DNA of 64,000 nt. Origin: Nereocystis luetkeana. Lineage: Eukaryota > Sar > Phaeophyceae > Laminariales > Laminariaceae. Where the stretch lies: the NCBI GenBank assembly GCA_031213475.1, contig JARUPZ010000014.1, positions 6,664,174-6,728,173 of the forward strand, in the 5' to 3' direction. Under the pieces are notes generated by a model. That model worked only from the letters and a program-made list of their open reading frames with translations. It had not been told where the DNA came from and did not search any database. Shown piece after piece: positions 15,430 to 55,718 of this stretch (the stretch's first letter is position 1; each line of letters begins with the position of its first letter). A program made the translations under genes and the position numbers.

Positions 15430-15452
15430 TAGTATCGCCGCCAAGTAGGTTA

Positions 15453-22139: not shown

Positions 22140-22194
22140 GGATACACACGTGGCCAATCGGCTACCACCAAACACCCTCTGTAGGGCAAAATAT

Positions 22195-27259: not shown

Positions 27260-28450
27260 CCATGGCGTGTAATGCTCAATTCACAAGCGCCGGAGGGTTC
27301 GTCAAGCAAGACGCTGGGAGGTAATTTGGATAATTTCCGTCCAAAGAAAGGCTCGAGCAAGCCACGAATCACTCAAGGGAGGGCAGGTACAGCCAGCCTT
27401 TGGAGGGGAACTGATCGAATCGCTGCAGTCACAATGCCTCTGGGGGGCGACATGACCATTCCTCACAAGCGTGCGCAATCTCAAGGCCTCTGGTGGGTAG
27501 CATGTTGTTCCACCTTCAGCGGGTGCAATGTCAATGTGCCTCCAGAGGCTGCCCATTCTCATCATAGACCTCCACCTGGGCAACTATTTCCCACGGCGCT
27601 CCAGAGCGAACGGCACGCAAACACTCTAGAGGCTAGCATTTAGTAGAGACCTCCAGCCGTCGCATCAGAAAAGCTCCCTCTAGAGGGGCGAAACCTCATA
27701 CCCTAAACAATCTCCAACGCGCTCTGGAGGGTGAAATGCCGACCCCCCTCCAGACTTTTCAATATAAACCCCTCTAGAGGGTTGAAACGGTCATTACCCT
27801 CCTCCGGAACAAACCTGCCGCACGGCCCTCCACCGGTATATAGACAGCCCACTCTAGAGGCTAGCATTTAGTAGAGACCTCCAGCCGTCGCATCAGAAAA
27901 GAGCTCCCTCTAGAGGGGCGAAACCTCATACCCTAGACAATCGCCAACGCGCTCTGGAGGGTCAAATGCCGACCTCCCTCCAGAGTTTTCAATATAAACC
28001 CCTCTAGAGGGTTGAAACAACCATTGCCCTCCTCCGGAACAAACCTGCCGCACGCCCTCCAGCGGTATATAGACAGCCCACTCTAGAGGCTAGCATTTAG
28101 TAGAGACCTCCAGCCGTCACATCAGCAAAGAGCTCCCTCTAGAGGGGCGAAACCTCATACCCTAGACAATCGCCAAGGCGCTCTGGAGGGTGAAATGTCG
28201 ACCTCCCTCCAGAGTTTTCAATACAAACCCCTCTAGAGGGTTGAAACGGTCATTTCCCTCCTCCGGAACAAACCTGCCGCACGGCCCTCCAGCGGTATAT
28301 AGACAGCCCACTCTAGAGGCTAGCGCACATGACAAGCCTGTACAGGGTACCAAAAGAAAAAAATCCCTCTAGAGGGCGGAAGGCCTGGCCCTCCAAGCCT
28401 CAAACACCCTCTGGAGGGTGGCCTCGCCCTCTGGAGGGTCAAATTGTTCC
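27260..28450 (+). repeat. Right palindrome array, units of about 229 bp
   Basis: CTCTAGAGGCTAGC starts at 27624, 27852, 28081 and 28311. Each unit also carries CCCTCTAGAGGGGCGAAACC, GCTCTGGAGGGT and CCCCTCTAGAGGGTTGAAAC. Looser CTCTGGAGG words extend left to about 27260 and right to 28450. Confidence 0.88.
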
Positions 28451-32914: not shown

Positions 32915-33583
32915 CAACCCCTATCCAACTACTTACTGTACGCGGTTCTGAGCGGGATGGCTGAAAACGGCGTGAACTTCGAGCCCTGCTGGGAACAGCT
33001 GTCCAGAGAGTTTGCGGCCGTCGTTCAAATCAAAGGGCCGGTGTTATTGGGGGACATCGCCAGGGCGTACGCGTCGGTGCACCGGTCAAATTTCCAGCTC
33101 CACGGTCATCAGCTGAAATGCTGCCTGCAGAGGGGCCAACTGCCGTCAGTTCGGTACGACGAGCGAACGAAAAGATTGTGCTTGGTGGAGAACGCAGGGG
33201 GTGATGGTACGTCGAGCAAGAAGGCGTCCTCTGCGTCGACCAAAACCACCAGGCGCGCAGCACCGACAGAAAAATCTGGGCACACTACTGCGAGGATAAC
33301 GAAGCCTTCCGGGACGTCCAAGGTCGAGTATTCCGGGCCAACCAAAACCGGGAAGACCGCGACCACCAGAGACAGGTATGTCGGGACGACCAAGGAGGAG
33401 ACAGCGACGCCGCCCTCTGGTCCGAGCGGGTATATTCCTTCGTATTTTCTTATTGACAGCACCAACAAATGCAATGAATTCGTGGGGCCATCGTTGAAGC
33501 TGATCTGCACGGGGCATGCGATCGCTCTCCAGCTCGAGGGCCGCAGGTTGGGTGCCGACGGTGGAGAGATCTCGATCATCAAG
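32915..33583 (+). CDS. Fusion gene exon 1 (first recognised)
   Basis: Open frame ending at ATCATCAAG|GTGGGC. The left end is uncertain: CAG at 32912-32914 or TAG at 32776-32778 could be the acceptor. It encodes a helical region ([20 protein letters not shown]), a Thr/Lys/Ser-rich linker and the first exonuclease strands, [20 protein letters not shown]. The 3.5 kb intron after it contains composite element copy B. Confidence 0.85.
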
Positions 33584-36500
33584 GTGGGCTGTCAATGTGT
33601 GTTGTGTGCCATGTATCACGTCAAATATATACGTCTACGAGTATAGAGCGAGGACGCGGGAAATTATCTACGGCAGTACACTTTTTACTCTCCCCCTTGC
33701 AAACCCCCGTGGACCATCTGTTGTGCTCGACGGACGGGTGTTTGTTCGCCGTAATTGTTCGCCGTAATAGTGTAGACTGCTTGCTGCTGTGTCGCAGGAC
33801 AACTGCATTGCAGCAGTAGTCATACGTACGAGTCGTAAAGCATACCAGGTATACTGCTATTATACCCACTCTAAAAATATCGTATTCAAGGTGGTTGATG
33901 TGAGATATTAGCGCACCGAAGTCTAGAACACTGGACTGAGGGATCTTGAAATCGAGGAACCAGTGGAGCGAAAAAAAAACATGAAGAGGGCGAAGGAAAT
34001 ACGATGTAATCAAAGTGTCAAGATACGTATGGATGTACATACATACATACATATGAAAGGTATCTTGTTTTCCTGTGATGATCACGTAGTAGGTAGTTAG
34101 ATACAGACAATACGCAATCATCCCGGGATTGCCTCGTTTCCTGTAAAGCAGGTGATATGCCGGGTTCGTCGATGTCGTGGCGATGACACACGCGGTATAG
34201 TCACCATTTCAATTTATCCTTCGTATGTTTTCGGTGGGTTGTCGCGATGCCCCCTCTGTCCTCAGCGAGGTTCTACGTGTCGGAACACCAACGCCGCCCA
34301 CTTCTCGACAGCCAGGCACCTTTGCTTGTGTGGGACCGAATGTTTTCGGCCCCTACAGACGGGTGTATCACCGTTCCGCGGGCGGGCAAGCTTCGTACGA
34401 TTCCCACTTTTTTTACAGTATGCAGTTTCAGTCATAGATGGTAGTGATTCACTACAGACAGGCAGTAAATAACCTAACACTGTGAAGAATAGCTGATTCT
34501 GAACGTGAACGAGGTCGACCCAGTTATTTGTGGACCTACCTGGTATATTACAATAGTGCTGTAGCGACGATCGGGAATATTGACGTACAGGTAGGTACCT
34601 GATACCAGTACCAGACTAGCATCGGCGCAGCTCGGGATGCGTACAAACCCGAACCGTGTAAAACAATGGATACATACGTGACGTGGTACACCGTGCCTGC
34701 TCTCTGCAGAGGACGTGCATGCTCCCCTGTGTCATGGTTAGGGCTGAACACTACCGTTACCCCGGTACACCTTCCTTGTCTCCGTCAAAAAGAAACTTGT
34801 CGCGGTTGCCACGCGCTAAGGGTCGAACGTTGTGACCTAAATATTTTTTTTGTGACATCAGGCCACACTCTTTGACTCCCCTCAATGCCGTTGTAAAACA
34901 ATTATATATGTACCAGGTATATATTATATAGAACAATAGCTGTGAGATCGAGGAATTCGGTCGAAACTCATATTTGCAGGCTGTGTGTGGTAGATTGATC
35001 GCGCGTACTACCGCTTACATATATATAGTGCTTTGGTACTATCATAAAGTTTAAGGGACGAAGCCAAAGTCACGATCTGCCTTGGGGGGAGTTGAAACGG
35101 GTCTTGCTATTATAGTATACTGGTAGCTTATTATGTTGATGTTGTAGCGAGAAAATCATATTACGGGGGACCATAGTGAATAGGACCAAATATTGTCGGT
35201 AAAAATAGGTAATACAAGGCGCTTCGCTCCGCGGGCGGCCTACGCCGCCCGCTACGCTCGCTCAGGAAGGAAAACAGTACATCAAATTATGCGAAGCGAA
35301 CAGAGGTCCACGATTGAGTTTAGTTTTTGCAAGGATCGTAATTGCAAACCGGCGACTTGATAATGCCAAGAGTCCCGCCGCCATGCTTCATGAAAAAAGA
35401 GCTCCGAAGTCAGCTTGGATGGCACATATACGCTTCGCGTCGCGGATGTCGTACGTACGTACATACCCCAGGTAGGGTACTACTGTCTGTACTTATTTTC
35501 TTCTTTCGATATGCTCTATGTCTGTACTACGGCATGTACGAAGAAAGCGAAAGCACACAGCACGGCACAGCAGCGAAAACAATGAAAATGAAACCGAAAA
35601 CTCGGAAAGGAAAAAAAAACCGTCCCCTCTCGTGTAATATTTTTCTGCCTGAGTGGAACACCTGACACCCTGTCGAAAAGAAAAGAAAAAATCGCACTGA
35701 AGAGCTTCTCTCTCAGCCTCGTACGCCGCCCGCCCCTCTCGCGACCACCTCGCTACCGATTCGGTCCGGGTAAAGCTTTTATCACCCTCTGCCACAATCA
35801 GCCCCGTCGCCCACCTCGCGTGAAGCCCGGTGCTCACCGTGGCCGTCGTTCGCCAGCTCGATAACGTTGGTGTTCAAACTGCACACGTCCCTCTTTCAAC
35901 TTCAGCGTGGTCGCAAAAATAAGCACCGCTCGAATATTATCTTGCCCTCCCGAACGACCTTCATAACTAGTACATACTCCATCAACAATCATAAATCGAA
36001 GCCAGACAAAGCCCGTTCATGCATCCCTCGTGTCGAGGCACACGCGACGCCTAGGCACGAAAGCGGCGACCGCGCTCCTTGCAACCCCCCCTCTACCCGC
36101 CAGCACCCGCTGACACCCGCGACGGTGCCGGGTCCTCCCGCGATGCCGTGCTCGGAGAACACGCACGCTCACGAAACGAAAGAAGTAAAAAAGGAAGAAA
36201 GGACCGAGAAAACAAAGAACTGCTGGAAAGGTCCGGCAAGTAATGAAAAGAGGCGGTTTGGAAGTGGGAGCTCTGAGACGCCAGGGATGCACCAACCGAG
36301 CACGCTCAGGGGTTGTGATCTAAGTATGTAGTTCTATATATATATATATAGGTTTTTGTGCGTACCATGGGTCCTATATACTATGGCCCTCCAGGAAGAG
36401 TTGTTCCTGATTTAGGCGCTAGAAGTTTTCATACACGGTACGTTGCATTGCTTTTTTTTGTGTCTTCTAAACCAGCTTTTTTACTACGAGTACCGTGATA

Positions 36501-39500
36501 TGAGTAGTGTAAGTGAGGTAAGCTGTTCCTCAAGTCGAGAGCCTCACCTAGGAATTGCTGCCGCGAAGGACTGCAGTTCCGTTATGGGGACAAGCCACTC
36601 GAATCCTGAGCAGGTTGCCCTGAAGACGAGACTGCGGTCTTCTTCAAAAAACGGATATTACGGTGCTGCATGCCTTCAACGAGGCACGCGTCACAGTTCG
36701 ATTGCCTTTACTTTGTTGTCTTCGTCGTCGTCGCCGTGGTCATTATTATTTTTAATATTTCCTTTGACATCCTACAATATGCAGCTTGACCTTCAACATT
36801 GATCACTCATAACTTTCCCGAAAGAGAAAACGTCATTATTGTTGGTTATGTGGGTTTTTGTCAAGTATGTTGTTGATTGATTCATGTTCTCGTACGATCC
36901 CTGCGCCCTGCGCACAGCAGTGTTCCAGGAAAATTAAAATATACCAAAAAAATACGAATCGTATTTGCAGGGGGAACGGAAAAAAAAAAAACATGTAGAG
37001 TATGGTATTCCACGACGTGCTGTACGTGCGTAAGACCGTTCTGAACAGCCAGTTTGAACATGGTTGCGTTCGAACTCGCTTCTACAGCAACCTGTTGTCT
37101 GTGCGCGCGTCAGATCGCCGGAAGCTGGTCGATGAGCCGTGCGGCGTTCATGTTCGACGTGGCGGCGCTAGAGAGGACACCAGCTGGGCACAAGCTCCTG
37201 CGTGACCAGCTGCTCCCATTCCTCGAAGATGAAGGTTCGACGAAGGTATCACATCATACCACGTACCGTTTTCGCACGAAAAAGGCCATCCATAGGTAAT
37301 GGTGTAGCCCAAGAACGACGTCGTACTCGTACGCGCGCGGGAGGGGGGCCGCTTTCATAATTACCCCTAAAATAATATGAACATTCCAGTGTCAGGATTT
37401 CAAAAAGAAGCCAGCAAACATTAACCTCGGATGGATGGTCGGGGGAAAAAATGAAGTATGTCTTAGAAGCCCCCCCCCCCGCCGATCATTGTCGGTTTCC
37501 TAGCCCACCTCTTGGGTGCGGGTTTGCACTACAACGGCACCGCCGGGGCAGGCCCGAAACACCGCTCGCTATGATAAGGGAGCGATCGCCAGATGTTTGC
37601 GCTCCAATGCGTTGTTCGCGTCGTGATGCCAGACCTCATAGACTTGTCGGAATTTCAACCAAGAAGAGTTGCCTTCATGCCAAGTACTGTACAAATATGT
37701 TCATGATGAGAGAGAGATGCCAGACGGTGCTCCGTTTTCTGTTTCCATCCCATCTGGTTTATTCCGCTCCTCTGTCTCCTGCTCCCTGATGTAGTCGTTT
37801 ATCAGGTGCGAGCGGACATAGGTTCGGCCTCTCTCCCTCCTCCCCCCTGGGGTTTGCGCCATGCAATTTTACGAACAGAAGGGTTCTCCACGTTCTTCCC
37901 TTTTCGACTCGCGTCTTATTGTTTGTGCCTATGCACGATTCTAGTATTTGAATCTTCGCATTACTTGCGATATATATATATGCACATGTTGTGGGACACG
38001 AGGTATCAGACGGCATGTTGTTGTGCTATTGATACTGAAGATATCGTACCTTTTCGCTGCTGAAAACGATGCCCAGCCGAATTTCACGTACAGTATACAA
38101 CAAACCTGTCGAAAACGGGAGAGATGTGACGTAGACATTACCCTCCCAGGACGTTCCTTTCCAAAACCCGTTGTCGGATTTCGAGGATAAATAGGGTCTA
38201 TCCGTTCTGGAGCATTCATTCCCCACTCCATCTACCCCGTAGGTGGTCCACGACTTCACGATAAGCGCCATTGCCTTGAAGCGCCACTTCGGCGACGCGC
38301 TCAAGATCGGTCGACCTCTGGACACTCAATTCGCCCTCGAGGCTCTACAGGGCGACATTGGCGGCACCATCGGCTCAGCGATCAAAGTCTTTACGGGGAC
38401 TCACGACCTGTTTAGTGACGCCGCTTTTAGGTGCGATCTGATCGTTTTACATGCCATAGACAAAACGGGAAAATGGGAACGAAACAAAAAATGGGAACGG
38501 ACGGTTTTTTTTAGAAAGCAAACCAATTGTGTACAACTCCAAGAAAAAACGTTGACAGTCCTGTGGGGCTGTACAGCAGCCTTCGAATGACCTGTCGCTC
38601 AGGCTGGAAGTCCTCGGCATCGCCGCGGTAGCCAGCATCTAGAGGAATCACTATAATAGAGCCAGCGTATATCGCTTTTTGCGCCCACCCGAAGGCACGA
38701 GATGGAGCATGACCGTTCTGACGAGCTAGGGGTTTCTGTCCTGTACTGCGCGTACGAAGTATACTGTCAAACCGATGAAAGCAAAACGCGTCGTATATCG
38801 TATTTCCGAGACATATGCTTTCGCTCATTCGCGGGTGCTCCTTAAGAGCAGAGGCCTTCCTGCAAGCGGGACGCGGGGATACAGATGTTGCTTGTTGATA
38901 GATTATCTTATGTTCAGCGTTCTCAGCTGAATCTTTCACCGACGCGGGGTCGAGGACAACAGTGCGCAAGACGTTGGGCTTGGACTCGGAGGTGAGGGGT
39001 AGCACAAACAAGCTGAATTGATGATATAGTGTTGATTGGTTCCGCCTACATCGTTTGCGCGCGAACAGACAACTTGCCGTGCTACAGCAAAACGGGAAGA
39101 GTGTTGAGTGATGGCTGGTTGTATATTCACCCCCCATACGTTCGGCGTGAACAGCTGATTGCAGAACTCATTTCATACAGATCGTTGAATTGGCACAGGG
39201 ATATGTTCGTTTTTCAACCCTCGAGTTTTTTCACAACGGGAAAGCTGCTATTACGGGAGACCACAGTAAGTAGGACCTACGATGCACCCAAAAACGTATA
39301 TATTCGCCTATTTTTATGCACAATATTCGGTTCCATTCACTATGTATGGTCCCCCGTAATAAAACCGAACAAAGTGCTTTTTAAAAATGTCTTGGACAAA
39401 AGCCTTCCAAAAATAGAACGCTCTCCGCTTTACCAGCGCCCTTACCGTTGTAGAAATAACCAGCGCAAGAAAAAACTCGCACTCCTGTACGAGCTCAACG

Positions 39501-42500
39501 ATATTTGCCGTAGCCGGGGTTGACGGCAATCGTATCTCGACGGAGAGCCATCAAGGAATTCCACTGAAAACATGACAGTACGGTAGGCTTAAAAGGGGCC
39601 TTGACTGTGGTGAATATTGTTTGGGCGCATCCGGCATGTTTCCGGACGCGACCCCGACGCTGCCGGTATCGAGCCCACCTTGACGCCAGAGGGAGAAGGA
39701 GAGCCAAGATGAACAGAATGGTGTATGCACCCGACGTAACACGAATATTCGTGTGTTGTGTGTGTCTGCTCTATGCACGTACGTATAACGATATATTGGA
39801 TGATATATCGGTGGCATGTATGTTCTCTTTTTGTTCTGCTCTCACTAACATACTGCACGTGGAGGACTTTGGCCTATTTTGATGCAGCCCGTTTGGGCAC
39901 GACGGACGAGGCTACCGGAGAAAACACCCGAAAAACCACAAGCTGTGCAGGATTGCAGATCAGGTCATTTGTATTTCACCTTGCGCGTCGACTGGTTGAT
40001 AGTGGTAACATAGAACGGCCGTTTGAGGACGATCATCCCAACTGTTGCGATACATTGCGACTCAGGGCGACCGCGTTCGACCACATGAGAGGCTCGAGTC
40101 TACCCATCAGCTCCCACGAATTAAACCGAGCCGCGCGCACGGTCAACTCCCTCGCTAAGGTAAGCCATGATCTGCGACAGGAAGCATAACACATGGTTCC
40201 TCGCGCCACGGCCTCGTGGTATTTCATGACGAGTAGTTTGTCTCCGAGAATTTGCAGCATGCATCGGTGTCGAAGTAATATCGTGCTGAGGTGCGCGATT
40301 GTTTTTTCCGGCGCTCGTTTTTTTCCAGAACGGGCAAGGCTGCCAAAATTGAGCATTTGTCTATCGTTTTTCGGAAATATCGTGGTCGAGAGCCTCCCGA
40401 AAATATATACTTCTCGAGTATCTAAGCACCATTCTGTGTCATTGTCGAGAAAACGAGTGCTGGTGAAAAGCAATCGTATCCATGTGCAAACTCAAAGATC
40501 TTTGCAGTAGCTGATGTCGGATGACGCAGTACATACATACGGCGAGGCCGTGAGTATGTTCTCGTCTGGTGGGCAACCCGCGAAACATTCCCGGCATCAT
40601 GGCGCGTACTTCTTTCACGCGGGTTCTGGTTCTTTCTCGCGTGCCAGGCCGGGGCGAGCATCATGACGGCAGGGCAGCTCACCGAGGACAAGCTCACTCA
40701 AGTTCTGCAAGCCTCCAAGGTACAACAAATACCCCCGTCTCACAAAAGCAACATGCACGCTCCTTTTCCAGTGAAATTACGCATGAAGCCTTCCTCGAAG
40801 CTATCGGAGGTCGTTTCGGCGTAGTTGCGCTACAAAAGATGTCAGACGAGGTAGTAGAGTTATCGACTTTCCGATGTTCACGAAGCTTTGTGAACACACA
40901 TATCTACCGTTTCCGTTTCGCGTCCCCGTACTGGAGGAGTATTGTGCTGTTATGACAGCGTCGATTTTCAGAAACCAGGATCGAACTGAGCCCGTCAACA
41001 TGTCCAGCAACCACACCAGGAACGACGTGGATGAACATCGGTACGACGAGGAGAAACATGTAAACTTGCCGATATGAAACATCCCGTGAGAGACAGAGTG
41101 GCCCCACGCACGTGCCAACCATTGATAACTAATATTGCGGTACAAACCACACCTTCATGCGCAACTATAGGTTAATCGGCTACCCGGTATCGACTGAGTA
41201 GGTATTGCATTCCGATGTCTCTAGGCACGCGAATGCTGCTGTCTTGTCGAGTATTCGGCTACTCGACCATCGTCGTCGTGCAGACCTCTCTCGTCGCAGG
41301 GCACCCACCTGTGGCCCAGCGGTTACACCCTCGGGCACAGCAGTTGGTCGATTTGCTTGTGGCGTCGTCTGCATATGCATATATATATATACCACGCAAC
41401 CATCGTGTTTACAGATATCCATCGTTCCGATATTCATGTTCGTTTACAGCAGTTTCCGCCGGTAGTACTGCTGCCGTACAAGATATCACCGCAACCGAGT
41501 ATCCGCGTACTACGGCAGTCGGGACCAACAAGCGTTACCACCGACGAGTTTTTCCCCCAGATTTCTTTGGAGTTTGTATCGAGGTCGTGAAGAGGCATTC
41601 GGCCACGGGTTGGGAAACGTTACGCAGGGCAATGTCAAGAAAGTTGAGCGTCGCATACTTAGAAAACTTGAACGAGAGAAATCCTCAAGATGAAATACAC
41701 GAAGAAATAAGATGGAAATTACCGAAATTACGCAAACAAAGGCTCTACTCCGATGACATCGGCTCTAAGCCTATCCTGACCGCGTTACACTTGTTGAGTC
41801 AACACCACATGTACGCGTTAGCCCTGAGTCAACCATCCAGTGGAGAGTAGTTCCACAAGCGTAATGTCGATAAACCGAGTGACGAAAGTCCCTTCTCCTT
41901 CAACGGGATACGGCGCTTGACGCTTCGTACGGCGTATCAACGGCAGTATTGTGCTTGCTTACCGGAGTGTGCCAGGTAATACCTAAAACGCCTCGACCCT
42001 TTCCCAACAGCTGAAGATCGACTTCGCGATGCACACGCTGGACAACTCTCGTTGGATGGCCTTCCGCAACAAGGGAAGGTGCTGGGGAGGTGGAGTCGGC
42101 AGGAAAATGGTCAGCTACGAGCTGCAGAAGGTCGGGTCCCCGACTGCGATGCCTGCCACTAGCGTCCAGACAAAGTCCATGCTTCAAAAGGTCGGCCCCA
42201 ATGACGATACAAGACAAATTGACAGCAGTACTCGTGTCGACCTGGTACCCCTTTCGTTGGGGCGTTTATGTATACGGTGAAGAACAGAAACCACTCGGAA
42301 TTGTCGAAACTCATTCAAACTGGTATGAATGATATGAACTTCGTGCACTCCTGGGTACCAAACCCCGTGCACCCTCGGCTCCAAAGTTGGGAAGCGGAGG
42401 CGGGAATGTGTGAACGTTTTCGAGCACGGTATGGTGTATTGTGGGCCTGGCTGGGGTCGCATCCCGCTTGTGCTGAAAACGTACGTATAGTACTGCTGGA

Positions 42501-45500
42501 CTTGCAAATTGCATGACAGCGTGGCAACGTCAGTCGTCGACGTCCAGTCAACAGAGCGTTTACTTCCGGATGGGTCGCAATGAAACCAGGCCTACGTGTG
42601 ATCAGCGTACTTGGTACGCGGTGGTTCAGAGATCTCCCACGCTTCGCCGATACATGTGTGCCTTCGAGACTTTATTTACTGACCCCCGGCGGAAAATGTC
42701 ATCGTAGTACATAGCTGTAGCACCATAACATTGTCATATCAGCCGTGTGGCTCACACTGATGCAAACGAAAGACAAACCGATGCACATTGTAGTGCATCA
42801 TTACTTGGATTGGTATCGTGGGTAGGTATATCGTACTTCGAAACATGACCTCAGATATCACTATTGTCCAAGTTCTCCGATTATCATCTTCAGGCCACAT
42901 GTCGCAAGAAACCAGCTCTTCTTCCTGTTCGCGGAAATGCACAAGCAATTCCGTCGGTCGCAACGCAAAACTGTAGTATTTCCTGCTGGACATCTCACGT
43001 TTGTCTGACTTTTGCAGTTTGTCATCATGGGTGCCGTTCGTCTCGTACCGACCGTTAAAAACGAAGTTCCGCCTGTTTGTTCGTACAGGGAGAGGCACCT
43101 CTCATGCTCAAGGAAACAGCATCAACGCGAAGTACAACGTGTTGATTTGTTGGCCGGGCGCAAGATCAAACCAATCCGCAACATGAATATCAGCCAACGC
43201 TCGAATCTCTGTGTTTCCGCTGCCAAGGGTCCGGGACTGCCCCATATACCACTACATCGTGCTCTTATTCAACGTCCTCAAAGCAAAGAGTGCCCATACC
43301 CAGGTTATCGTCGGCATTAGGCGATATGGTCAACACATTGCTATGCGCTCGATAGCGCATCCCCAAGCAACATCTCGAACACGTTGCTCGTGATGCTTGA
43401 GGCTACACATCGTCATCGTGCACGACCTGTACTGTGTGGAATCAAAAAGTATGTCAAAACGTTGCTTGTTGGTACCATGAAGGATAGGGTCAGCTCAGTC
43501 TCCGGCATTGTTGAGTTTAGCAATGGAAGCCCATGGAGGCATCCTGTGCTTCCGCGGAAGCAGTGGGAGCTTCTCCAGAAGAGTCCACCCACTCTTTATG
43601 GAAGCAGTGGAAGTTTTCTTGAGGGCGGCGCTCCACCTAATTCCACTAAAAAGGCCAATAATTCACGGGACCCGGTCAGCTTGTCCGCCCTTCGATCGCC
43701 AGCTGGTTTTGGCCAAGTGGCCGGAAGAAAATGAGCACAAATCCTGGCTCGGCTGGCCGATGAAGATTCTACATCTTCACGTCTGCTTACGCTCGCAGCG
43801 ATAACCTCGTACTCGCTCGCGCCCGACGTGGGTACCTACATTAATCCTCAGCTCCCGGCACCGACAGTTCTATTCCTATAAATATTTACCAGTATACATC
43901 GATTCGCCAAGTAGTTCGTTTGCGGAAGGCCTAGGCGCGCCCTACGTACAAACACGCCAACCTTTCATAGGGGTCGTTGAATACTCGGTGTACACCTAGT
44001 CGTGGAGTCGTCCTGGTATTGCAACTCGAGTGGTTTTGCTGCTGTAGAGTGGGTACACAAAACATACCACCGCCCCGCCTACAGAGAAGTGAGCATGCGT
44101 CTGTGTGGTGAAAAACAATGTTGATAGGTACTGCCACAAACTAATGTGGAGTGTTACACTTCTCCCGTTGATTGGACAGGTTCAAGGACCAGTCGGCGGC
44201 GGAGGGGTGGAGACGCTCTTTCCTCCCAAGCCTCCTCAGCAGCAGGACGCCAAACCTGTCACGTTCCTAGCGTTTGTTGGGCGCCTCGGGTAAGGGGCGA
44301 GAATCACCTGCTGGCACTGCTCTTCCGTTTAGCATATAGTTTGTCGTCGTCTAACCCAGGAGGCCGTGTTAAACATTTGTGTTGCTCACGGCGCCAGATA
44401 GATAACCCCTGCGCCTGGCACTAAACAGTTGCGATTCCTTAAGACCATAGTGAATAGAACTCGCGGTACACACAAAAACCTAGATATTTACCTATTTTTA
44501 CCTACCGTGTTAGATCGATTTACTATGTTCCCCCGTTAAACGGAAAACGGTAGAGGAGTTCTTATTCTACGATACATACCGAACCCTGGAACCTAACAAC
44601 TGAATAGTTATCACCCCCTCAAGACTTTTTATTGGTTTGTTGAAAACAACTCACCCACCCGATCATGTATACATCGCCCCAGAGCAGTACGTTTAAACGC
44701 CCCACCCGAAAAACGCTTTGTGCGCGATACATAAGAGAGACGCCGAACCTCGTGACATCGCCGTGAAGTCTTCTGCTGTTGACGACGTTCTACGATAGAG
44801 GTCCAACCTAAAATTCCTGAGGCTCCTCCCTAAAGGAGCTCATTTTATACCCCACCAGAAAAAAACTGACTTCAGCCGATATCGAATTGCGCCCCGATGG
44901 ATACCCCCATGGCCCAAGTATACAACCACGTTCTTTTTCGAAACAAGCTTGGCATTCCGACGATTTTGGGTTTAAGGAACCGCGTCATTTCAGAAAAAAC
45001 AATAGCGGAAAAACGTGCTCCCTCTCCATCGTAGAACGCGCCGTCTGGAGAAAGTCCCAGAACACCCCGTCGATGTATTTGGTAGCTTTATTTTGTGGAA
45101 ACGTTACTACACGGGGCGTAACCACTCGAGGTCTGTCGATGCCCAAATCCCTATTGAACAGTGCGAAGCCCAACGAAAAGGACGAACCGACAGAAGACGT
45201 CAACTGCCCTCTCGATGTACTGCAGCTCGTCCCTGAAGCCTTCCTGGCGGAGCACCTGACGAGAAGGTGCGATTTCCGTCGTCAATCAGAATAACGCTAG
45301 GAGACCGGCCGTTCTCGCCCTACAACCCCGGCAGCAAGCAACATATATATCTGGTATCTGGTATGGTTGGCCTCCGTGAGACGATGATGACGGACAGTAT
45401 GCGGCAATAAGTTATTCACTCTTGGCACGTTGATTCGCTAGGATGTATATCATGGGGCAACGACGAAAGCAGAGCTCGGGACCATATTCGCAATCGCAGT

Positions 45501-48500
45501 GTGGCGGAAGTGCTTCTGATACTGTGTCCTGTGCTAACGATAAAGCCTAGAGCACGGGTATCGAGGAAACAGATACCGGCAGTGATAATTATGTGTGATT
45601 CCTCGGTACTGGCTGCATGAGCTTAGCCTGCGACGGCTTCCCAACATCGTGCCTCCCGTGGACACGTCGGGTCAACACTCGACGCAGCATCGTTCAAGTA
45701 CGCCGGACCCAGGAAAAATTAAGGCTTGTTGCGCTGATTGTGCGGCCGGCAAAATCTCTCAACCATTATGCCGCGGAGGCAGCCGTACGACTAGCGTTTA
45801 TTGTAACTGAATGTCCCGGGGAGTCGCGGACTTCAAGCACACCCAAAGCCCGCAATATGCAGGTCGTTCACAGCTATGATTGGCAGACCAGCCTCTCGAC
45901 TTGGTATTGTCCGAGGCGGTTATAATAACTGCGGTCGAGATCGCCCACTGGCGTGATCGTTCGACGTGTAGAATACTCGGACCAATGTGTGACCACCTAC
46001 CTCGAGAGCTCCGAAACCGCAACTCATTGTAACGTTTGGGTACTGTCTTTAAAGTTGAACCCCCAAGGCTGTGGTAGGGGGGGGGGGCGGGTTTAGATTT
46101 TTCGAGTTTTGCAACTGAGAGGCACTCGGACGAGTGACCACTCTATCATATGTATTCGCGGCCGAAAGCTATTTCTCTTCCATGATTTGGTTAGGGTTAG
46201 GACCGCCATGGGATTTCTTGTTTTGCTACCGCGACAGATAAATGAATTTCCGAGCCCAACTCAGGTTAAGATCGAACAGAGCTGCTCGCCCCAGCGACCT
46301 TAGCGCGGTATTCGAAAAGTGGGCAAGCCGTCCTGACGCGTGCTACAGCCGTACGGGAAGCAAATGTTGGCGAAAAAATATTTTTTGAATGGCGGGGCTC
46401 CTTAAACCCGAATTGAAAAAATAACTATATTTTCGTGCACCTAGGACATCGGAGTATTCATCCGGTTGCGCTTTGATTTTTCTCGAAATCAGTTTTATGG
46501 TTGAGGTATGCTAACAGTAGTGCAGAGATCCTCGAGCGGAGAGCGTCAGAAAATTTCAGAGTGCACCTCTAGCGCAGCACGCACGCTCGACTGTAAGCAC
46601 CAGCCTCGATACACGGGTTGGTATATTCTGCTTCTGATTCCCGTACTCAGCCAACGTGTCACGAGCTTCAACTAACTACGAACGGGGCCACAGGTGTAAT
46701 TCGAGACAGTACGTTCGGGGGGGGCGGAAAGGCTGCCCTCTAACATCGTTACTGTATGTATAAAAATCTACCGTGATCTTCAAATCTTCGAAGGCATAAA
46801 CGGAACCTCGAAGACCTTCAAGAGATTGTCCTGGACGAAGGCAGGCGACCCAGGGCCCTTTTACAAGGTGAGCCGCCGCGAGCCTCAGGGTGTGTAGGCC
46901 GCCCACGCGGGTGTCCCTTGCAAGTGGCGGTGACACATGTGTTCCCCTTGAACCAAATCACGAGGCACGCGCGTCGGGTGACGATCGAAAACACCTTTGA
47001 ACTAAGCTACGGCAGGGCAGGCAGTACTGCTGTGGTCCCGTGTTCACTCGAGAGACATGCTTGTCTCTGCTTGCTGTGGGGGGGGGGCATGGCTACAGCC
47101 CCAAATCCACTTAGGCCGTAATGACACCTTGCACTTTCTTAACCTCCAGGTATGCTGCAAACATTGGCTTTGAGGAAAAACGGAACAAATAAAACTCGCT
47201 GACCCATGAAGATTTTCGCGAAAGGGAACAGCACGCAAGCTTGGACCTTGAAAATACACAGGGTCGCCACTCGGGCAATATCGACCCTGATCCATTGACA
47301 CAGATGCCGTGAACGTGTTCCCCTCACCGTAGTTTGGGTATCCAATTGAATATTCCTCGTACCGTTGTGAACTCGACGGCCTCTCTAGGACGCGGACGAC
47401 TTTTTCTTTGCAGCGACGAGAACCGTCTTGTGACAGCGAAGGACCTCAAGAAGGTCGTGGGTCGCCTTGACCTCGAGGGGAAGTTTGGGCAGGACAACCG
47501 AGCAGGATTCCCCGGCCAGCTCCACCGGCTAAGCGTCATGAGGAGAAAGCAGGTTAGCGGAAAATATGTCTTGAAATGAACTTATCGAACCCTCGGTACA
47601 CTGTTTGCATGGAGTCTAAAAGTGCATGGGACGCTGAATTTTTATCGCCCTGTCTCCGGCAGTTTTGGTTGACCTTCTCATTTGACGGAATGGGGTATTG
47701 GGATGCGTCTTACCGGCTTTACGTTTGGGTGCTACGCTTCGAGGTCTAGAGAATTGTTCTGACTGCTCGTGTATGCCGATCACACCTTCGAACGTTTGAA
47801 CAGAACGGAGAAATATACGCGGCGACTCTCCGCATTGGAAGGTTTTTCAAGGGGAGTGCCGGACTGATCGATGATATTCTCTTTCACGTCATGGACGTCC
47901 CCGGTAAGACGAGCTTTGCTAAGTGTTCTTCGACACCGGATGGCTACGTCTGTCAGCAGAGATGTCAACCGTAGCGCAAATCGGTTGTGGACGGACTCGT
48001 GAGACAACATATCCCTGAGTAATGTGCGGGATCGTAGTTCACCGTATCTCGTTCGTCCCTTGTCATGTTGCACCACACAGGCACTTCATTTAAATCAATC
48101 TATATCATCCGTACCCCCGTCCCACTTGCCAAACGATGTCAACGCTCTCGAATGGCTCCACGCGATTTCAGGAAAGCCACAGCGCGCGGCGTCGATTCTC
48201 GTCTTGGGGGAAGCAGGGTCCGGGAAGACCACTGTCATTCGCGACGTCTGCCGCAAAATCTCCGCAACGCAGGTGCCAGCGAAGGACGATAACGGCCAGG
48301 GTGGATTCTACCCACCGTAGATGGGAAGAACTATTTACTTGTTTCGCGCTAGAATTAACTGGAGAGACATTATATATACCTCATCTCCAACACCGACATC
48401 TTGAGATAACCTACGCGCCAATCATCAATAAAACGTAATCGGCGCGCACATATATATTATGTAAACGACGACTCGGATAGCAAACATGCGTGTGCAGCAG

Positions 48501-51500
48501 TTTCTTTCTTGCAGAAGTTTCATTATTAGTCGGCCTTGCTGCTGAACACGCCCGCTTTGTAGCTTTGTATTGGGATGACTCGGCGGTCGTTCTGCCTTCC
48601 ATGCACATACAACGCTCTGGTTCCGGTTGCAGCGTTTCCGAGGTCGGGGGGTTCACGGAAAAGGAGCACCCGCATACTGCGTCAAACAACCCCGCCGATT
48701 GTTATCTCCCAACCTAGCCTGAAGCAGAAGGGAAGCTTCCACCGACGAAATATCCATATGGCGAAGCATAAATGAGCGGTATATCGCAGGCCTGTACTGG
48801 AATCAGGGTGGTTGCGAGCGCTGAAGGCGGGTTTCATTTGAAGGGTTCCATGATATCCCGCCACGCTCGTGCTTCCCACTCTGCGCCTGTAAATTTGAAA
48901 GACCGTGGTGATCGTGGACACGAGCAATGAGATTGCCGGCGATGGAAACATCCCCCACGGCGAAGCCATCGGGGAGAGCCGAAGAATCATGGTACCGATC
49001 AAGGCGGAGCAACACAAGTAAATACGCGTTTGCATTTATTTTTTGTTGTCCTCGCGAGTTTCGCGTCCGTCACCTAGATTAATGTTCGAGTTGGCAGACG
49101 TAACAGGCTACTGTTAACACACCATGCCGTGAAACTTGAGATTACCCTCTCCGAGAGTGGCATCAGTTCTGCGGGCTATGTCAGTGATTTATTTTCGGTT
49201 TCATAGCCCGTTGGCTTGCGACCAATGCTGGCCACATGGTAGAGGTCGTTCATAAAACCAGCCAATGCATCCGGTAATTTTCTGCTTCCGCCAACGGGAT
49301 GACGCCGCGACCTTCCCTTGCCGATATAGACAAACCGTTGGGCAAGCATCGCCATATGTACAGATTTCATCGCCTTTCTATGTGGGTATCTTCAGCGTTT
49401 TCCACCCGCATCTGGGGATTCATTCCGTCTAACCTCCGAGCTCACCCCTCGCAAAACACGGATAGGGTCATGACGGAGGCGCTACAAAACCACACGCCCC
49501 AGACAATTGTGGTGGATGAGATCTCAAACAACCTGGAGGCGCGTGCGTGCTTGGACATCAAGGCCCGGTAAAAATGCATTCCCATTCATGGAATGTAGGA
49601 GCTACGTAAACTGTTAGATGCCCCGCCTACCATGCAAGGTTAGGATAGGGTGCATCGTCGCTCGGCGTGCAACGTGCGCGCGCAACCATGACCGACACGT
49701 ATCAGCCATGGACAAATGTGACCCGTGCCGAGGCGCTAGGTGGTCGTTTCTGAGCAGAAATGAATGATCGGTTACAGCCTCTTGCCACGAACACCCACGG
49801 CGATAGCACCTGGCCTTGACGAATAGATTGGAGTAATCTGAAGGCCGTAATCTGGCAAAAATGTTAATACTTTCATAGATTATGCTACTACACTGCTATG
49901 GCGTACCTCCGTGCCTGTCAGTCCTCTCAATGCTCTGGCACGCTGCGGCTATTTCCGCAGGGGTGTTCGTTTGGTGGCGAGCGCGCACGGCGACTTGCAG
50001 TCCCTCCTAAAGAACCCCAACCTCAACACCCTCCTGGGAGGAACAACGAGCGTGACCATAGGCGACAAGGCGGCCGAGGACAACGGGGGCAACAAGGTCA
50101 GACGACAAACGAAACAGCCGGGCCATGACATTACTTTTCCCTCTATTTTCGTTTTTTGTTTTTAGCTCTATTCTATATTTCACTTTCAGTTTTTCGGCAA
50201 TACGTCGGGTGTGTGTCGCGTGTGTACTCACGCTCGTTGTTGAAGTCCAGACCGGAGACAACAGAGTAAATAGCACCTAATGTGACAGTAGCCCATGACC
50301 TGAAATATTCGTCAAACTGTGTGGGTTCTATTGTCCTCCATTATTTGTTTGTCGGCATATCTCGCACATGTCACCGTCTGGGCTGGAGGTAATAAGGCAA
50401 AAAAAACAATAAATGTAATCGTGGATGAAATGCAAGGTTCCTCTAGAAATTTTCTTCTCGCCTTTATTCTTCAGCGTACGTTGGGTGTGTGGTTACGTTG
50501 CGCGAGATTCCAGACAAATTGTGGGAGCAATCGATGCATTCCTTAGTTTATGTTGCGCATGAGGCCCAGGTATTTCGTTCGTATTTCTCGCTGATCGTCT
50601 GCTACCTTGTTCCCGTCGCAGGCTATTCCGCTTTCAAGTAACGTGTGTGCGACCCCGTAAGCCTGGTTCGAAGCATCTGGCATAGTAGTGACCTGTGTAC
50701 CGGTAGATATGGCCAGGACTTTCACAACATGGTATCTACCTGTGTTCGTCCGCTGCAAGGTCACGTCCGCCACCGGTTTTATCCAGAATGCGCGTAGGGC
50801 CGGCTTGTTGAGTTACCATCTCATTGTTTTGCCGTGAAACGTAGACCCACGTTGACATGATGCTGACACCAGTGATGCCATTATAGGGTTGACCCCTTGG
50901 ATACACCCCCCGCTCTCAGGCATCTTCACCTTCGCCACACCCCGCGCGCCAACCTCCTTTTGCCGGTATCAGGTCCTGACACAACGAGCCGGTGCTCCCG
51001 TCTTTGATATGGCCATCGAGATCAAGCGCGGCGAGGTGGGGACGTGGACCATCATCAGGAACGTGGCGGTTGCTGTCGACGCCCTCTTGGAGGGGGTCTC
51101 TTACGAGGTGGAGCGCAGGTCCCGTTCTGACCGCGATCCGCAGTCCGCAAACAAGGTGTGGCCTCTTAAGTTTTCATTTGCGCGGTTTTCTTACTTGTAT
51201 GTCCTCCTGTCCCTTGCGGGATGTTTTGCTGCCCTCCACCAGGCGTCTACTGGACGTCAGGCATCTAAGCATGTATATAGGACAATGAGTAATGATGTGG
51301 TTACCGTGAGGAGCCTAGCGTTTGCACAATGGGTGCGGTCGTTCATCGGCGCTGACTTCACTGTCAGCAGTAAAAGGGGGCTTATGCCGAATATGTTACT
51401 TTCGTCGGAAGGCGCTCGATCAGAAGTTTTCAGCAAAACGCCTTGTTCGTGTGGACAATTTTGCCGTTCTGGGACGATCGAGCGATAAAGTATCACAACA

Positions 51501-53610
51501 CACTTATGCGATATGCACGGTGTTCCGCTTTTCCCCACAGGTAGTTAGTTTCGACCGTGGGTTTACGAATGTTATTGTTGATTTGAGATCACTCACTCTG
51601 GATACTAACGCGACTTCGTATGTAGAGAGGGGGTGAGAGCTCCGGATACCGAATACAAGGGGCATCCTCACTATCGAAGCCTATGTGTAAAGTTGTGGAA
51701 GAGCACTTCCTACAAATTTCGTTGGAACGTCACTGTGAATGTGTAAGCTTGTGGAGGCGTGCTGTATGTGCTACGTGGATGTCGCATGGGTTTGTGCTAC
51801 GTGGGCCAAACATCTTATCGTTGATGAAGCTCTTCAACGTAGGACGCACCCAATTATGCTTGTTTCGGTGGGATTTTGCCACATTTTTTTTGCACATTGG
51901 TTTCTTCGTTGCCGAGGCCATGAAAGGGCGCCTTATTCTTCGCTCACACATAAACTCACACTTGGCGGTTGGGCGAGTTGCAGTAGCAAGCTTGTACGTA
52001 TGTCTAAACATATCTGAATACGACGTTCGCGGCCGAGACCTCTTTATATCCACTTATATTTTCGGGTTAAGCAAGTCGTCGATGCCATTTTACCGGCCGG
52101 TTTGCGTCCGACGTGGTTTCCCGGCGCAAGCACCAAGGACTTCCACATAGGGGAGCTTCGTAGTACAGGGGGGCGGGACCTTCCGCACCTTGGACAATGC
52201 GGGCGGAACTAGCCCCTTGTGGAGGCAATGAACAATCGAGCATACCGGGTCGGGATGTTGTCGAGACGTTAGGAGTCGGTTGTGCTGAGTTATGCAACGT
52301 TTCCAAAACAAATGCAGCGAACCCCACTGAGATAGTGTCGAGGGCCTCTCAAATTCGGGCCCCCGAATGTTGTGCTGCATTGTTCGATGTCTCCGTAACT
52401 ATTGCGTTTCCGGCCCGCCCCACGGCCACCCGTTAGGGGGTACAGACCGATACCCATTGCCACAAAGTGGCGGTAGCCGCTCGACCCCACCACCACGCAC
52501 ACAACTCAAGCTACGTATCCTCAGCCGAAACGTTGTGGGAAAACGTCTGAGCACACGCTCTGGCAAATGAACAATTCATAATCTCACGCAGCGCCTGACC
52601 TGGGAAAAACACGGTGTGTTTCACGATCGGACTCTAGAACACTTAGGATAGGAAACATTCCGACTGGCGGGATCCGTCACCCAACTTTGCTCCGAGCTCG
52701 TTTCACCCTAGCTTCGTTGTGTGCCCCTGCTTCTGTGAGTAGTGGGTTGTCTTTGATCGGGCTTGAGTTTCAGTTTTTCTCGACGTCGGGTTATTTCAGG
52801 TTGATGGCCACGTTCCTCAAGCGAGTATACTCATGAACAAACAGGTGCACCACTTGCCGTAGCTCGCGTCGGACGAGTTTCGGTTACGTCACACGAGGCG
52901 TTCGTGCTTGAGTAGTTGCCTCGAACAACCAGGGACCGTACAGAGTACGTAGTAGGCCGAACGCGTTCGAACCGATCTTTTAACACTTGTTTGGGGGACC
53001 ATAGTTTATAGGACCTGTGGTATACATAAAAACCTATATGTTTGACCCTTTTACTGACCATATTTGGTGCTATTAACTTTGTTCCCCCGCAATAATCAAG
53101 CTGAGGCTCACCGTCGGGGTCGTACATGTTTAGTTGCCATCGGACTGTCCAGGCAAGGCAACAGCGAGCAAACCGTACGTACTTCCGAGTTTCAAAATAA
53201 CACCAGGATGCAGTTCTTCAAACGTGCGAGACGCCCGAGGTGATTTCGGCCGGAGGGAATTACAGCCCAACACGTTCTCTTCTTTACATTTCCCGGTGGG
53301 CTCCTCGCGCTCGTGGAATGGCCCAGAACTCGAAACCCAATGCACCGACTGCCGCGCGTCCGCTTTTGTCCCTAGTGATCTCTACACGACCCACCGCAGT
53401 GGTTAAATAGTTCACAAGTTCCTAGAGGGCGATTTTGTTTTGAACCTGATGTCTACCAAAGTCGTTGAATTGCCCTTCCTCCGTAGTTGATGCCTGAATT
53501 ATTATGCCCTACGCACGAATCTCTCCTTCATCCAGGACGCGGACTCCGAGGACGGGGCCTTCCGGCTGGCGTATGGCCAGGAAACTGAGCGAGCCACGCT
53601 GCTTTTTTGA
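32915..53610 (+). CDS. EXD1-like 3'-5' exonuclease domain fused to a SpoIIIAA/Ycf45-type P-loop ATPase, 17 exons seen
   Basis: Joining the 17 exons listed separately gives a continuous frame of 866 codons plus stop, with GT-AG ends and matching phases at every junction. Residues about 1-110 are an unclassified helical region, followed by a Thr/Lys/Ser-rich linker. Residues about 182-330 match the 3'-5' exonuclease fold as in EXD1: [44 protein letters not shown]. Residues about 490-820 match SpoIIIAA/Ycf45: [50 protein letters not shown], Walker [26 protein letters not shown], Walker [19 protein letters not shown] and [10 protein letters not shown]. The plant relative SPD1 acts in plastids. 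A nucleic-acid role is an inference. The true start exon is not found. Confidence 0.88.
35161..36392. mobile_element. Composite inverted-repeat element, copy B (intron 1 of the fusion gene)
   Basis: The left terminus, TTACGGGGGACCATAGTGAA, and the right terminus, TATACTATGGCCCTCC, are those of MITE family A. The 1.1 kb cargo matches copy A at 15754-18004 over nearly its whole length, from the GC-rich hairpin to CACGCTCAGGGGTTGTGATC, but lacks the nested insertion. It is flanked by TA on the left. Confidence 0.85.
36393..37113. other. Rest of intron 1, with decayed MITE family C
   Basis: The interval 36555-36650 resembles a decayed family C element (GGACTGCAGTTCCGTTATGG with GAGACTGCGGTCTTC). 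Nothing else is recognised up to the acceptor at 37113. Confidence 0.45.
37114..37245 (+). CDS. Fusion gene exon 2
   Basis: GCGCGTCAG precedes the exon and AAG|GTATCA follows it, both phase 0. It encodes [20 protein letters not shown] and [12 protein letters not shown], the strand and helix between motif I and motif II of the exonuclease fold. Confidence 0.9.
37246..38242. other. Intron 2 of the fusion gene
   Basis: A C run at 37471-37480 and otherwise unremarkable sequence. No repeat copy or embedded gene is recognised. Confidence 0.45.
38243..38430 (+). CDS. Fusion gene exon 3
   Basis: Follows CCCGTAG and ends TTTTAG|GTGCGA in phase 2. It encodes [20 protein letters not shown] and [12 protein letters not shown], a clear match to the HD...L and DTQ region of EXD-type domains. 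An alternative donor at 38387 (AAA|GTCTTT) is weaker. Confidence 0.88.
39251..39359. mobile_element. MITE family A copy (A11), intron 3
   Basis: Left end TTACGGGAGACCACAGTAAG, right end ATGGTCCCCCGTAA, flanked by TA. The right half carries a 4-bp duplication (TATGTATGG). Confidence 0.85.
40066..40159 (+). CDS. Fusion gene exon 4
   Basis: Acceptor CGACTCAG and donor AAG|GTAAGC. The phase fits exon 3. It encodes [20 protein letters not shown] and following. It is assigned by splice sites and phase only, as the sequence is not recognisable by family. Confidence 0.6.
40648..40719 (+). CDS. Fusion gene exon 5
   Basis: A 24-codon phase-0 exon between GTGCCAG and AAG|GTACAA, encoding [20 protein letters not shown]. 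It is supported by splice sites and phase, not by family match. Confidence 0.65.
40720..42010. other. Intron 5 of the fusion gene
   Basis: Contains an open frame of about 211 codons on the + strand (41215-41850), including a segment near 41590-41845 that reads like protein ([20 protein letters not shown]). It has no phase-compatible splice sites with exons 5 and 6 that I can find, so I leave it as intron. It could be an alternative exon. Confidence 0.35.
42011..42190 (+). CDS. Fusion gene exon 6
   Basis: A 60-codon phase-0 exon after TTCCCAACAG, ending CAAAAG|GTCGGC. It encodes [20 protein letters not shown], then a Gly-rich [13 protein letters not shown]. Conserved-looking but not assigned to a domain. 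The introns on both sides have no gene. Confidence 0.75.
42191..44179. other. Intron 6 of the fusion gene
   Basis: 2.0 kb with exon-like open stretches at 43019-43220 (after TTTTGCAG) and 43490-43740 (ending [17 protein letters not shown]). Either might be an additional coding exon, but neither preserves the frame between exons 6 and 7 with clear splice sites. Confidence 0.35.
44180..44289 (+). CDS. Fusion gene exon 7
   Basis: Follows GATTGGACAG and ends CTCGG|GTAAGG in phase 2. It encodes a Gly/Pro/Gln-rich linker and [11 protein letters not shown]. The next intron carries one MITE A and one MITE B. Confidence 0.8.
44438..44538. mobile_element. MITE family A copy (A12), intron 7
   Basis: Truncated or diverged left end, GACCATAGTGAATAGAAC, and right end ACTATGTTCCCCCGTTAA. 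Interior TACACACAAAAACC and TATTTACC as in other inverted-orientation copies. Confidence 0.7.
44781..45042. mobile_element. MITE family B, copy 3, intron 7
   Basis: Left end GACGTTCTACGATAGAGG, right end CCTCTCCATCGTAGAACGCG. Internal GAGGCTCC and GGAGCTC landmarks. It ends about 120 bp before exon 8. Confidence 0.8.
45162..45266 (+). CDS. Fusion gene exon 8
   Basis: Acceptor ATTGAACAG, donor GAGAAG|GTGCGA, phase 2 on both sides. It encodes [19 protein letters not shown], matching the first helix of the SpoIIIAA/Ycf45 N-terminal region (LP..LR..L type). Confidence 0.9.
45267..46793. other. Intron 8, with decayed MITE family B
   Basis: 46380-46580 resembles family B (GGCGGGGCTCCTTA, then GTGCACCTCTAGCGC). 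The open stretches at 45595-45925 read partly like protein, but their phases do not fit exons 8 and 9. The SpoIIIAA family also has no insert at this point, so they are not called as exons. Confidence 0.45.
46794..46867 (+). CDS. Fusion gene exon 9
   Basis: Acceptor CTTCGAAG, donor CAAG|GTGAGC. It encodes [20 protein letters not shown], matching the family motif EI..D.GR.P. The frame is fixed by phase with exons 8 and 10. A neighbouring open frame on the same strand is a shadow. Confidence 0.92.
47389..47552 (+). CDS. Fusion gene exon 10
   Basis: Follows CCTCTCTAG and ends AAGCAG|GTTAGC. It encodes [15 protein letters not shown] and [20 protein letters not shown], the family's DNRAG...LHR.S signature. 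Confidence 0.95.
47804..47903 (+). CDS. Fusion gene exon 11
   Basis: Acceptor TTTGAACAG, donor CCCG|GTAAGA. It encodes [20 protein letters not shown] and [13 protein letters not shown], matching the family segment before the P-loop (G.I.G.T.RVGR...G). It is too short to stand out as an open frame and was found from the protein pattern. Confidence 0.93.
48172..48272 (+). CDS. Fusion gene exon 12 (Walker A)
   Basis: Acceptor GATTTCAG, donor ACGCAG|GTGCCA. It encodes [20 protein letters not shown] followed by [17 protein letters not shown] is the P-loop that binds nucleotide phosphates. Confidence 0.96.
48902..49017 (+). CDS. Fusion gene exon 13
   Basis: Acceptor TTGAAAG, donor CACAA|GTAAAT. 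It encodes [20 protein letters not shown] and then [11 protein letters not shown], almost diagnostic for the SpoIIIAA/Ycf45 family. Confidence 0.97.
49466..49567 (+). CDS. Fusion gene exon 14 (Walker B)
   Basis: Acceptor CGGATAG, donor GCCCG|GTAAAA. It encodes [20 protein letters not shown] and [13 protein letters not shown]. The DE pair is the Walker B acidic centre. Confidence 0.96.
49961..50096 (+). CDS. Fusion gene exon 15
   Basis: Acceptor TTTCCGCAG, donor AACAAG|GTCAGA. It encodes [20 protein letters not shown] and [15 protein letters not shown], the sensor-like AHG motif and the following strand of the ATPase fold. Confidence 0.96.
50973..51155 (+). CDS. Fusion gene exon 16
   Basis: Acceptor CCGGTATCAG, donor AACAAG|GTGTGG, both phase 0. 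It encodes [20 protein letters not shown] and the W.I.R.VA.AVDALL.G segment typical of the family C-terminus. Confidence 0.95.
51156..53535. other. Intron 16 of the fusion gene
   Basis: 2.4 kb with MITE A13 at 52989-53093. The remaining open frames lack support. An extra exon here cannot be excluded. Confidence 0.4.
52989..53093. mobile_element. MITE family A copy (A13), intron 16
   Basis: Left end GTTTGGGGGACCATAGTTTA, right end TATTAACTTTGTTCCCCCGC. Interior GGTATACATAAAAACC, matching inverted-orientation copies. Confidence 0.75.
53536..53610 (+). CDS. Fusion gene exon 17 (terminal)
   Basis: Acceptor CTTCATCCAG, then 24 acidic codons ([20 protein letters not shown]) and TGA at 53608-53610. 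Phase 0 fits exon 16. The 2.4 kb intron before it contains MITE A13. There is no R3H domain after the ATPase in this exon. Confidence 0.7.
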   Translation, partial: DADSEDGAFRLAYGQETERATLLF

Positions 53611-55608: not shown

Positions 55609-55718
55609 ATGATCGGGGGACCATTGTAAATAGGACCACACATTGTTGGTCAACATTCGTAAAAATATACAGGTTTTTGTGTGTACCGTAGGTCCTATTT
55701 ATGATGGCTCCCCGTAAT
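55609..55718. mobile_element. MITE family A copy (A14)
   Basis: Left end ATCGGGGGACCATTGTAAAT, right end ATGATGGCTCCCCGTAA. Interior GTTGGTCAACATTCG and GTGTGTACCGTAGG. Confidence 0.8.

Follow-up and report, generated by a model that had tools for sequence, protein, structure and literature searches.

Ycf45-type ATPases are common in bacteria and plastid-encoded in some algae, and their function is poorly known. The locus described here lies in a stretch of 64,000 nucleotides from Nereocystis luetkeana (assembly GCA_031213475.1, contig JARUPZ010000014.1, positions 6,664,174 to 6,728,173 of the forward strand; hereafter the window), and it raises the question of whether such an ATPase can be joined to an exonuclease-like domain in a single intron-rich gene. 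An earlier note on this DNA had proposed exactly this arrangement. On the whole we lean towards one nuclear gene for a protein of about 866-870 aa, in which a dead Egalitarian/EXD-type domain is combined with a Ycf45 ATPase and which may serve in nucleic-acid remodelling.

The exons were rebuilt by hand from the raw sequence of positions 32500-54500, and stop-to-stop frames were surveyed for 30-56 kb. The reconstructed gene occupies 32957-53610 of the plus strand and comprises 17 exons with 866 sense codons and a stop. It begins with the ATG at 32957 and ends with the TGA at 53608-53610; every intron is of the GT..AG type, the intron lengths range from 251 to 3530 bases, and the splice phases are compatible through the whole model. 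The earlier note had also counted 17 exons in one frame, with compatible phases and 866 codons, and our independent splicing gave identical counts. Upstream of the exon 1 ATG the same frame stays open and holds no further ATG. The exons and their products are listed below; residue numbers are those of the 866-aa form, and in the 870-aa form described further on those of the ATPase are 4 higher.

32957..33583, plus strand: exon 1 (aa 1-209), N-terminal region of about 80 aa, Thr/Ser/Lys-rich linker and start of the exonuclease-like domain
aa 189-195 within exon 1, plus strand: motif I region IALQLEG; the Egalitarian alignment runs from aa 189
37114..37245, plus strand: exon 2 (aa 210-253), exonuclease-like domain with AFMFDV...FLEDEGSTK, in the Egalitarian alignment
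38243..38430, plus strand: exon 3 (aa 254-316), exonuclease-like domain with the motif II region and LDTQFA, in the Egalitarian alignment
39964..40159, plus strand: exon 4, doubtful (aa 316-381); the gene-model search prefers a shorter form, 40066-40159
40648..40719, plus strand: exon 5 (aa 382-405), coding-like, no homology match
42011..42130, plus strand: exon 6 (aa 406-445), coding-like, no homology match, possible in-frame extension to 42190 or 42244
44180..44289, plus strand: exon 7 (aa 446-482), Pro/Gly-rich linker, coding-like
45162..45266, plus strand: exon 8 (aa 482-517), where the N-terminal region of Ycf45 begins
46794..46867, plus strand: exon 9 (aa 517-542), Ycf45, profile E=0.13 on its own
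47389..47552, plus strand: exon 10 (aa 542-596), Ycf45 profile match
47804..47903, plus strand: exon 11 (aa 597-630), Ycf45, profile E=0.11 on its own
48172..48272, plus strand: exon 12 (aa 630-663), Walker A (K648)
48902..49017, plus strand: exon 13 (aa 664-702), Asp box (E673)
49466..49567, plus strand: exon 14 (aa 702-736), Walker B TIVVDEI (D719, E720)
49961..50096, plus strand: exon 15 (aa 736-781), His box SAHG (H745)
50973..51155, plus strand: exon 16 (aa 782-842), in which the ATPase domain ends
53536..53610, plus strand: exon 17 (aa 843-866 and stop), short acidic tail, placed by splice sites and coding statistics

Homology anchors exons 2-3 and exons 8-16 together with the last part of exon 1 (from aa 189). 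For exon 8 the anchor is solely the profile alignment of the whole spliced product, in which the match begins at aa 502; the blind scan described below did not recover this exon by itself. Splice sites and coding statistics underlie the placing of exons 5, 6 and 7 as well as that of exon 17.

Judged by its sequence, the C-terminal half is certainly a Ycf45-type ATPase with intact secretion-ATPase motifs. The spliced protein matched a profile of 99 Ycf45 proteins, 97 of them from prokaryote contigs and two (L122 and L123) from viral contigs, with E=2e-91. When the 2504 six-frame ORFs of the window were scanned blindly with this profile, eight gave E<=10; all were on the plus strand, and they held exons 9-16 in profile order. 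A tblastn search of plasmids revealed a Scytonema R3H protein that shares 39.8% identity across 92% of the query (E=4e-60). When the DTSNEI motif was looked for as a DNA pattern, at least 118 stretches of prokaryote contigs and 6 of viral contigs matched, and the 361-aa ATPase part showed 39-44% identity by blastp to ORFs of these stretches in the best 60 rows. The relative-locus search returned nothing for the ATPase half in prokaryote contigs and nothing for either half in viral contigs. Two of the ORFs (L029 and L035) have long N-terminal extensions, which by eye resemble translated sequence from upstream of the gene.

The SpoIIIAA profile search that had been suggested earlier gave a match above the cut-off, with 34.0 bits against 27 for Pfam Spore_III_AA (PF19568). 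The SpoIIIAA equivalog model TIGR02858 scored 52.8 bits, below its cut-off of 281.3, and the protein is thus of the Ycf45 (R3H-ATPase) type and not SpoIIIAA proper. Of the earlier SpoIIIAA/Ycf45 assignment, membership of the common superfamily and the presence of the motifs therefore hold, while SpoIIIAA proper has to be dropped.

The Ycf45-specific N-terminal part (DNRAG...LHR..., GR) is present in the window ATPase. Among the 129 columns conserved to at least 95% in 103 prokaryote rows, 89 are kept in the window and 40 are changed. The kept ones include K648 of Walker A, E673 of the Asp box, D719 and E720 of Walker B and H745 of the His box; among the changed ones are two arginines of the bacterial cluster ARRRG, which reads AEDNG in the window. 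The same ATPase motifs are needed for the function of SpoIIIAA in Bacillus (PMC2703783). The PF25516 and R3H domains are both present in a Calothrix protein (L027). When a 72-row profile of this C-terminal region was run over the window, its plus-strand match was the end of the ATPase in exon 16 alone, and three other matches, all on the minus strand with E of 5-10, were at chance level. A tree of 48 rows, in which the terminal branch of the window is about 10 changes per column long, does not place the window ATPase beside a particular bacterial group.

The exonuclease-like half has weaker similarities than the ATPase half, but by sequence comparison they appear to be real. Our own bait consensus brought up chains of Egalitarian and of BmEXD1 in the PDB. 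Residues 189-284 could be aligned with the exonuclease-homology domain of Drosophila Egalitarian with 33 of 85 positions identical (Z 11.4), a score reached by 0 of 5000 shuffles, a count that carries some selection because Egalitarian had been chosen after the bait raised it. With the other references shuffles did as well in 36 of 5000 cases for BmEXD1 (Z 3.3, short), in 568 of 5000 for Rrp6 and in 1944 of 5000 for a cyanobacterial RNase D-like protein, so that a good alignment was obtained with only one of the four references. Against Egalitarian the spliced model scored 78, the ORF of exon 1 alone 44, and the best of the 2504 window ORFs 47 (an antisense frame over exon 1). The alignment crosses the joins between exons 1 and 2 and between exons 2 and 3, and these exon joins are thereby supported.

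Could this likeness be due to chance or to another fold, with a divergent nuclear Ycf45 carrying an unrelated N-terminal extension? The family searches leave some room for it. The PF01612 (DNA_pol_A_exo1) search proposed in the earlier note stayed below the cut-off, a 224-aa piece giving 12.2 bits against a gathering threshold of 23.6 (E=0.16), and the same region gave no family at E<=10 when placed inside a 445-aa piece or a 308-aa provisional join. For the exonuclease region NCBIfam offered no supporting family, PHROGs a single unrelated match (tail protein, 0.1), and phmmer against the PDB, with two cuts of the region, nothing at E<=10; a tblastn search of phages with the exonuclease half had no match. 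A bacterial RNase D profile, built from 44 of 70 rows after ORFs of at least 500 aa had been dropped as PolA-like, scored a poor 2.1 bits, and 22 of 5001 controls were as good. Against a chance likeness stand the 33 identities in 85 with 0 of 5000 shuffles as good, collinear across three exons, and the fact that the only Pfam match of the 224-aa region is to PF01612, the family that would be expected, and is also collinear (profile positions 22-110 of 173). We regard an unrelated extension as very unlikely. The domain had been described earlier as an EXD1-like exonuclease; what stands of this is an Egalitarian/EXD-type domain, while the alignment with BmEXD1 itself is poor and the catalytic aspartates are lost.

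DEDD exonucleases carry acidic catalytic residues in motifs I, II and III. In the alignment with Egalitarian, Q192 of the window protein stands where motif I has its aspartate, and S261 where motif II has its own; E194 of motif I and D257 of the HD pair are kept. Beyond the DTQ residues the alignment with Egalitarian falls to the level of shuffled sequences (4332 of 5000 and 936 of 3000 as good). For motif III, a candidate stretch of exon 4 had been noticed by eye against PLTREMMLYAAGDV; it is not supported, as the tail after DTQ aligned no better than shuffles. Membership of the DEDD group is thus not borne out, the acidic residues of motifs I and II being changed and motif III not being alignable.

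With two aligned catalytic aspartates lost, the word exonuclease refers here to a fold from which no activity is expected, and the domain probably binds its substrate without cutting it. EXD1 is an inactive, RNA-binding nuclease, and the exonuclease-homology domain of Egalitarian is known from animal RNA localisation. RNA is contacted by this domain of Egalitarian at a distance of about 15 A from the putative catalytic residues, which binding does not require (PMC13186709), and this contact away from the catalytic residues serves as a model for a binding role in the window protein. Within the single-gene model the domain might instead be a nuclease that stays active by means of shifted or unusual metal ligands; the product would then be an ATP-driven nuclease. 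E194 in motif I and D257 beside motif II, both kept in the alignment, would suit it; Q192 and S261 at the positions of the aligned aspartates, together with the failure to find motif III, speak against it, and we consider it highly improbable.

The question of whether the two halves belong together turns on the region between exons 3 and 8. Exons 4-7 gave no homology match. After training of codon statistics on the 12 homology-anchored exons, the candidate exons were compared with frames of intronic pseudo-exons. None of 2777 such frames scored as high as exon 5 and none of 2383 as high as exon 6; the corresponding numbers were about 1 of 2495 (0.04%) for exon 7 and 0 of 2629 for exon 17. Exon 4 is doubtful, with 2.9% of 1564 frames as good. 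It should be mentioned that these statistics are no sharp test, since the anchored exons 1 and 9 themselves score about 0 per codon.

A crude search combining splice and codon scores from exon 3 to exon 8 put one gene ahead of two by 5.0-5.7 nats under five penalties; the model behind it is small, was trained on the same gene and ignores gene ends. It preferred 42011-42244 as exon 6 under all five penalties and 40066-40159 as exon 4 under four of them, and these forms lead to a product of 870 aa in the same frame. A direct splice from exon 3 to exon 8 is also in frame and scores 6.2, a value from an earlier model run that overfitted at low penalty, against 16.3-37.0 in the run that replaced it.

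The rival arrangement is that of two adjacent genes on the same strand, in which an Egalitarian/EXD-like gene ends between exons 3 and 7 and a separate Ycf45 gene has its start within exon 8 or before it; ATGs in exon 4 and exon 5 and those at 45073 and 45139 are among the candidate starts. It draws on the want of homology in exons 4-7 and the weakness of exon 4, on an in-frame ATG inside exon 5, and on the in-frame stop that is reached when exon 4 is left unspliced. The best two-gene path itself varied: under two of the five penalties the second start fell at 40085 and exons 4-7 went to the ATPase gene, while under the other three it fell at 45139 and they went to the first gene. This arrangement is at odds with the lead of the one-gene model, with the coding-like character of exons 5-7, whose phases chain to exon 8, and with the stretch from the ATG at 45073 to exon 8, which is in frame, scores as non-coding (-0.40 per codon) and has a repeat immediately before its ATG. 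We consider two genes unlikely, and the two halves are likely to form one gene. The single-gene claim of the earlier note is favoured by the crude model and the coding-like exons 5-7, although this falls short of proof.

For the first 82 aa of the protein neither a Pfam nor a PHROG family was found, and PelD, the best PDB match (0.055), makes no sense and was set aside. An AF2 prediction for exon 1 alone was uninformative (pLDDT 36.7), and at this value its helix-helix-helix-strand-strand pattern is no evidence. A comparison with the first domain of Egalitarian (ED1) did not support a LOTUS-like winged helix at the N-terminus of the window protein (1815 of 3000 shuffles as good), nor did the XAD of Egalitarian align with the window protein (729 of 3000 as good). 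The LOTUS, XAD and motif III readings had all been favoured by eye, and all failed on shuffling. No signal peptide is obvious by eye at the start of the modelled protein, before which a further upstream exon may exist, and the location may thus be cytosolic or nuclear rather than in the plastid.

From the N-terminus the proposed protein would thus consist of a region of about 80 aa, a low-complexity linker, the Egalitarian/EXD-type domain, a middle part and the Ycf45-type ATPase, with both halves presumably joined in one polypeptide. We hypothesize that RNA (or DNA) is held by the dead exonuclease fold in the way known from Egalitarian, and that this fold may stand in for the C-terminal R3H domain by which bacterial Ycf45 binds nucleic acids. 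ATP hydrolysis by the ATPase, probably a ring, could then move or remodel the bound nucleic acid or a partner. The most probable reading is that of a type II/IV secretion superfamily ATPase with a non-cutting nucleic-acid-binding N-terminal domain. More tentatively, and with less than even probability, the protein may be a Ycf45 ring ATPase whose R3H grip has been swapped for a dead Egalitarian-type domain, giving an RNA motor of the cytosol or nucleus outside the plastid context. If true, a eukaryotic Ycf45 combined with a pseudo-exonuclease of RNA-binding type would suggest that the function common to the family is the handling of nucleic acids; an intron-rich eukaryote would have an ATPase carrying an exonuclease-homology domain like that of Egalitarian, and a motor of bacterial or plastid type would have gained a new way to grip RNA or DNA.

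Several other features were observed in the window. Two minus-strand ORFs match positions 2-46 and 45-100 of the Pfam HSP20 profile, respectively, and probably form one spliced gene for a small heat-shock protein:

12801-13271, minus strand: ORF matching HSP20 profile positions 2-46
8551-9063, minus strand: ORF matching HSP20 profile positions 45-100

A MITE-like repeat of about 110 bases occurs in both orientations and is palindromic at 4635-4853; among the matches listed, its copies are:

4635-4853, 5634-5749, 15323-15432, 19877-19988, 20879-20991, 39245-39361: copies of the repeat of about 110 bases
44443-44536, 52993-53094, 55606-55721, 58828-58928, 63452-63564: further copies of the same repeat

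Three of the copies listed are in introns 3, 7 and 16 of the gene. The following repeats were also among the matches listed:

16988-17950 and 35393-36338: repeat pair, about 94% identical
15751-16006 and 35158-35407: repeat pair, about 94% identical
3552-3791, 4888-5133 and 44777-45044: dispersed repeat
27622-28324; 22166-22661; 869-1905 with 9093-9623: tandem or inverted duplications, 76-95% identity

One copy of the 94% repeats lies in intron 1, and the stop-to-stop frames of both copies look similar; the frame at 35774-36328, in the intron 1 copy, had no Pfam match. The dispersed repeat at 44777-45044 is in intron 7, just upstream of the ATG at 45073 and of exon 8.

Comparison with known systems revealed that the ATPase region of the window protein resembles cyanobacterial and Chloroflexi Ycf45 (a PF19568-like ATPase with PF25516 and R3H) nearly from end to end. 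The window protein differs from them in the added exonuclease-like N-terminus, in the changed ARRRG cluster and in PF25516/R3H, which were not found in the window. With SpoIIIAA of spore formers it shares the ATPase superfamily and the four motifs, but not the equivalog level (TIGR02858, 52.8 of 281.3 bits). The likeness to Drosophila Egalitarian (PDB 9uju, 9rvy) consists of the 33 of 85 identities over the first 86 aa or so of the domain; Egalitarian keeps the aligned D/E/D residues and has no ATPase, and its motif III part, helical XAD and first winged-helix domain do not align with the window protein. BmEXD1 (PDB 5fiq) belongs to the same superfamily, and its motif I is also changed.

Among nuclear-encoded Ycf45-type proteins, plant SPD1 consists of Ycf45 plus R3H and is located in the plastid. 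By this general description the window protein is like SPD1 in being encoded in the nucleus and unlike it in the R3H domain and perhaps in its location. A role for SPD1 is named in PMC7913978. Nuclear YCF45 is listed for Phytophthora and Naegleria (PMC3087521), mutations in ycf45 are listed for evolved Synechocystis (PMC13139465), and EXD1 is mentioned in PMC12497819. Ycf45 is termed uncharacterised in passages of PMC3087521, PMC6242988 and PMC13139465. No pairing of an exonuclease with Ycf45 appeared in the titles and abstracts returned by text searches of open-licence papers or in the passages available from PMC3087521, PMC13139465 and PMC12497819. Thus, the pairing of these two known families appears to be new, although it may well be annotated already. 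A fusion of another kind has been reported in euglenophytes (PMC6242988), where Ycf45 forms the C-terminal extension of an FtsH protease predicted to be targeted to the plastid.
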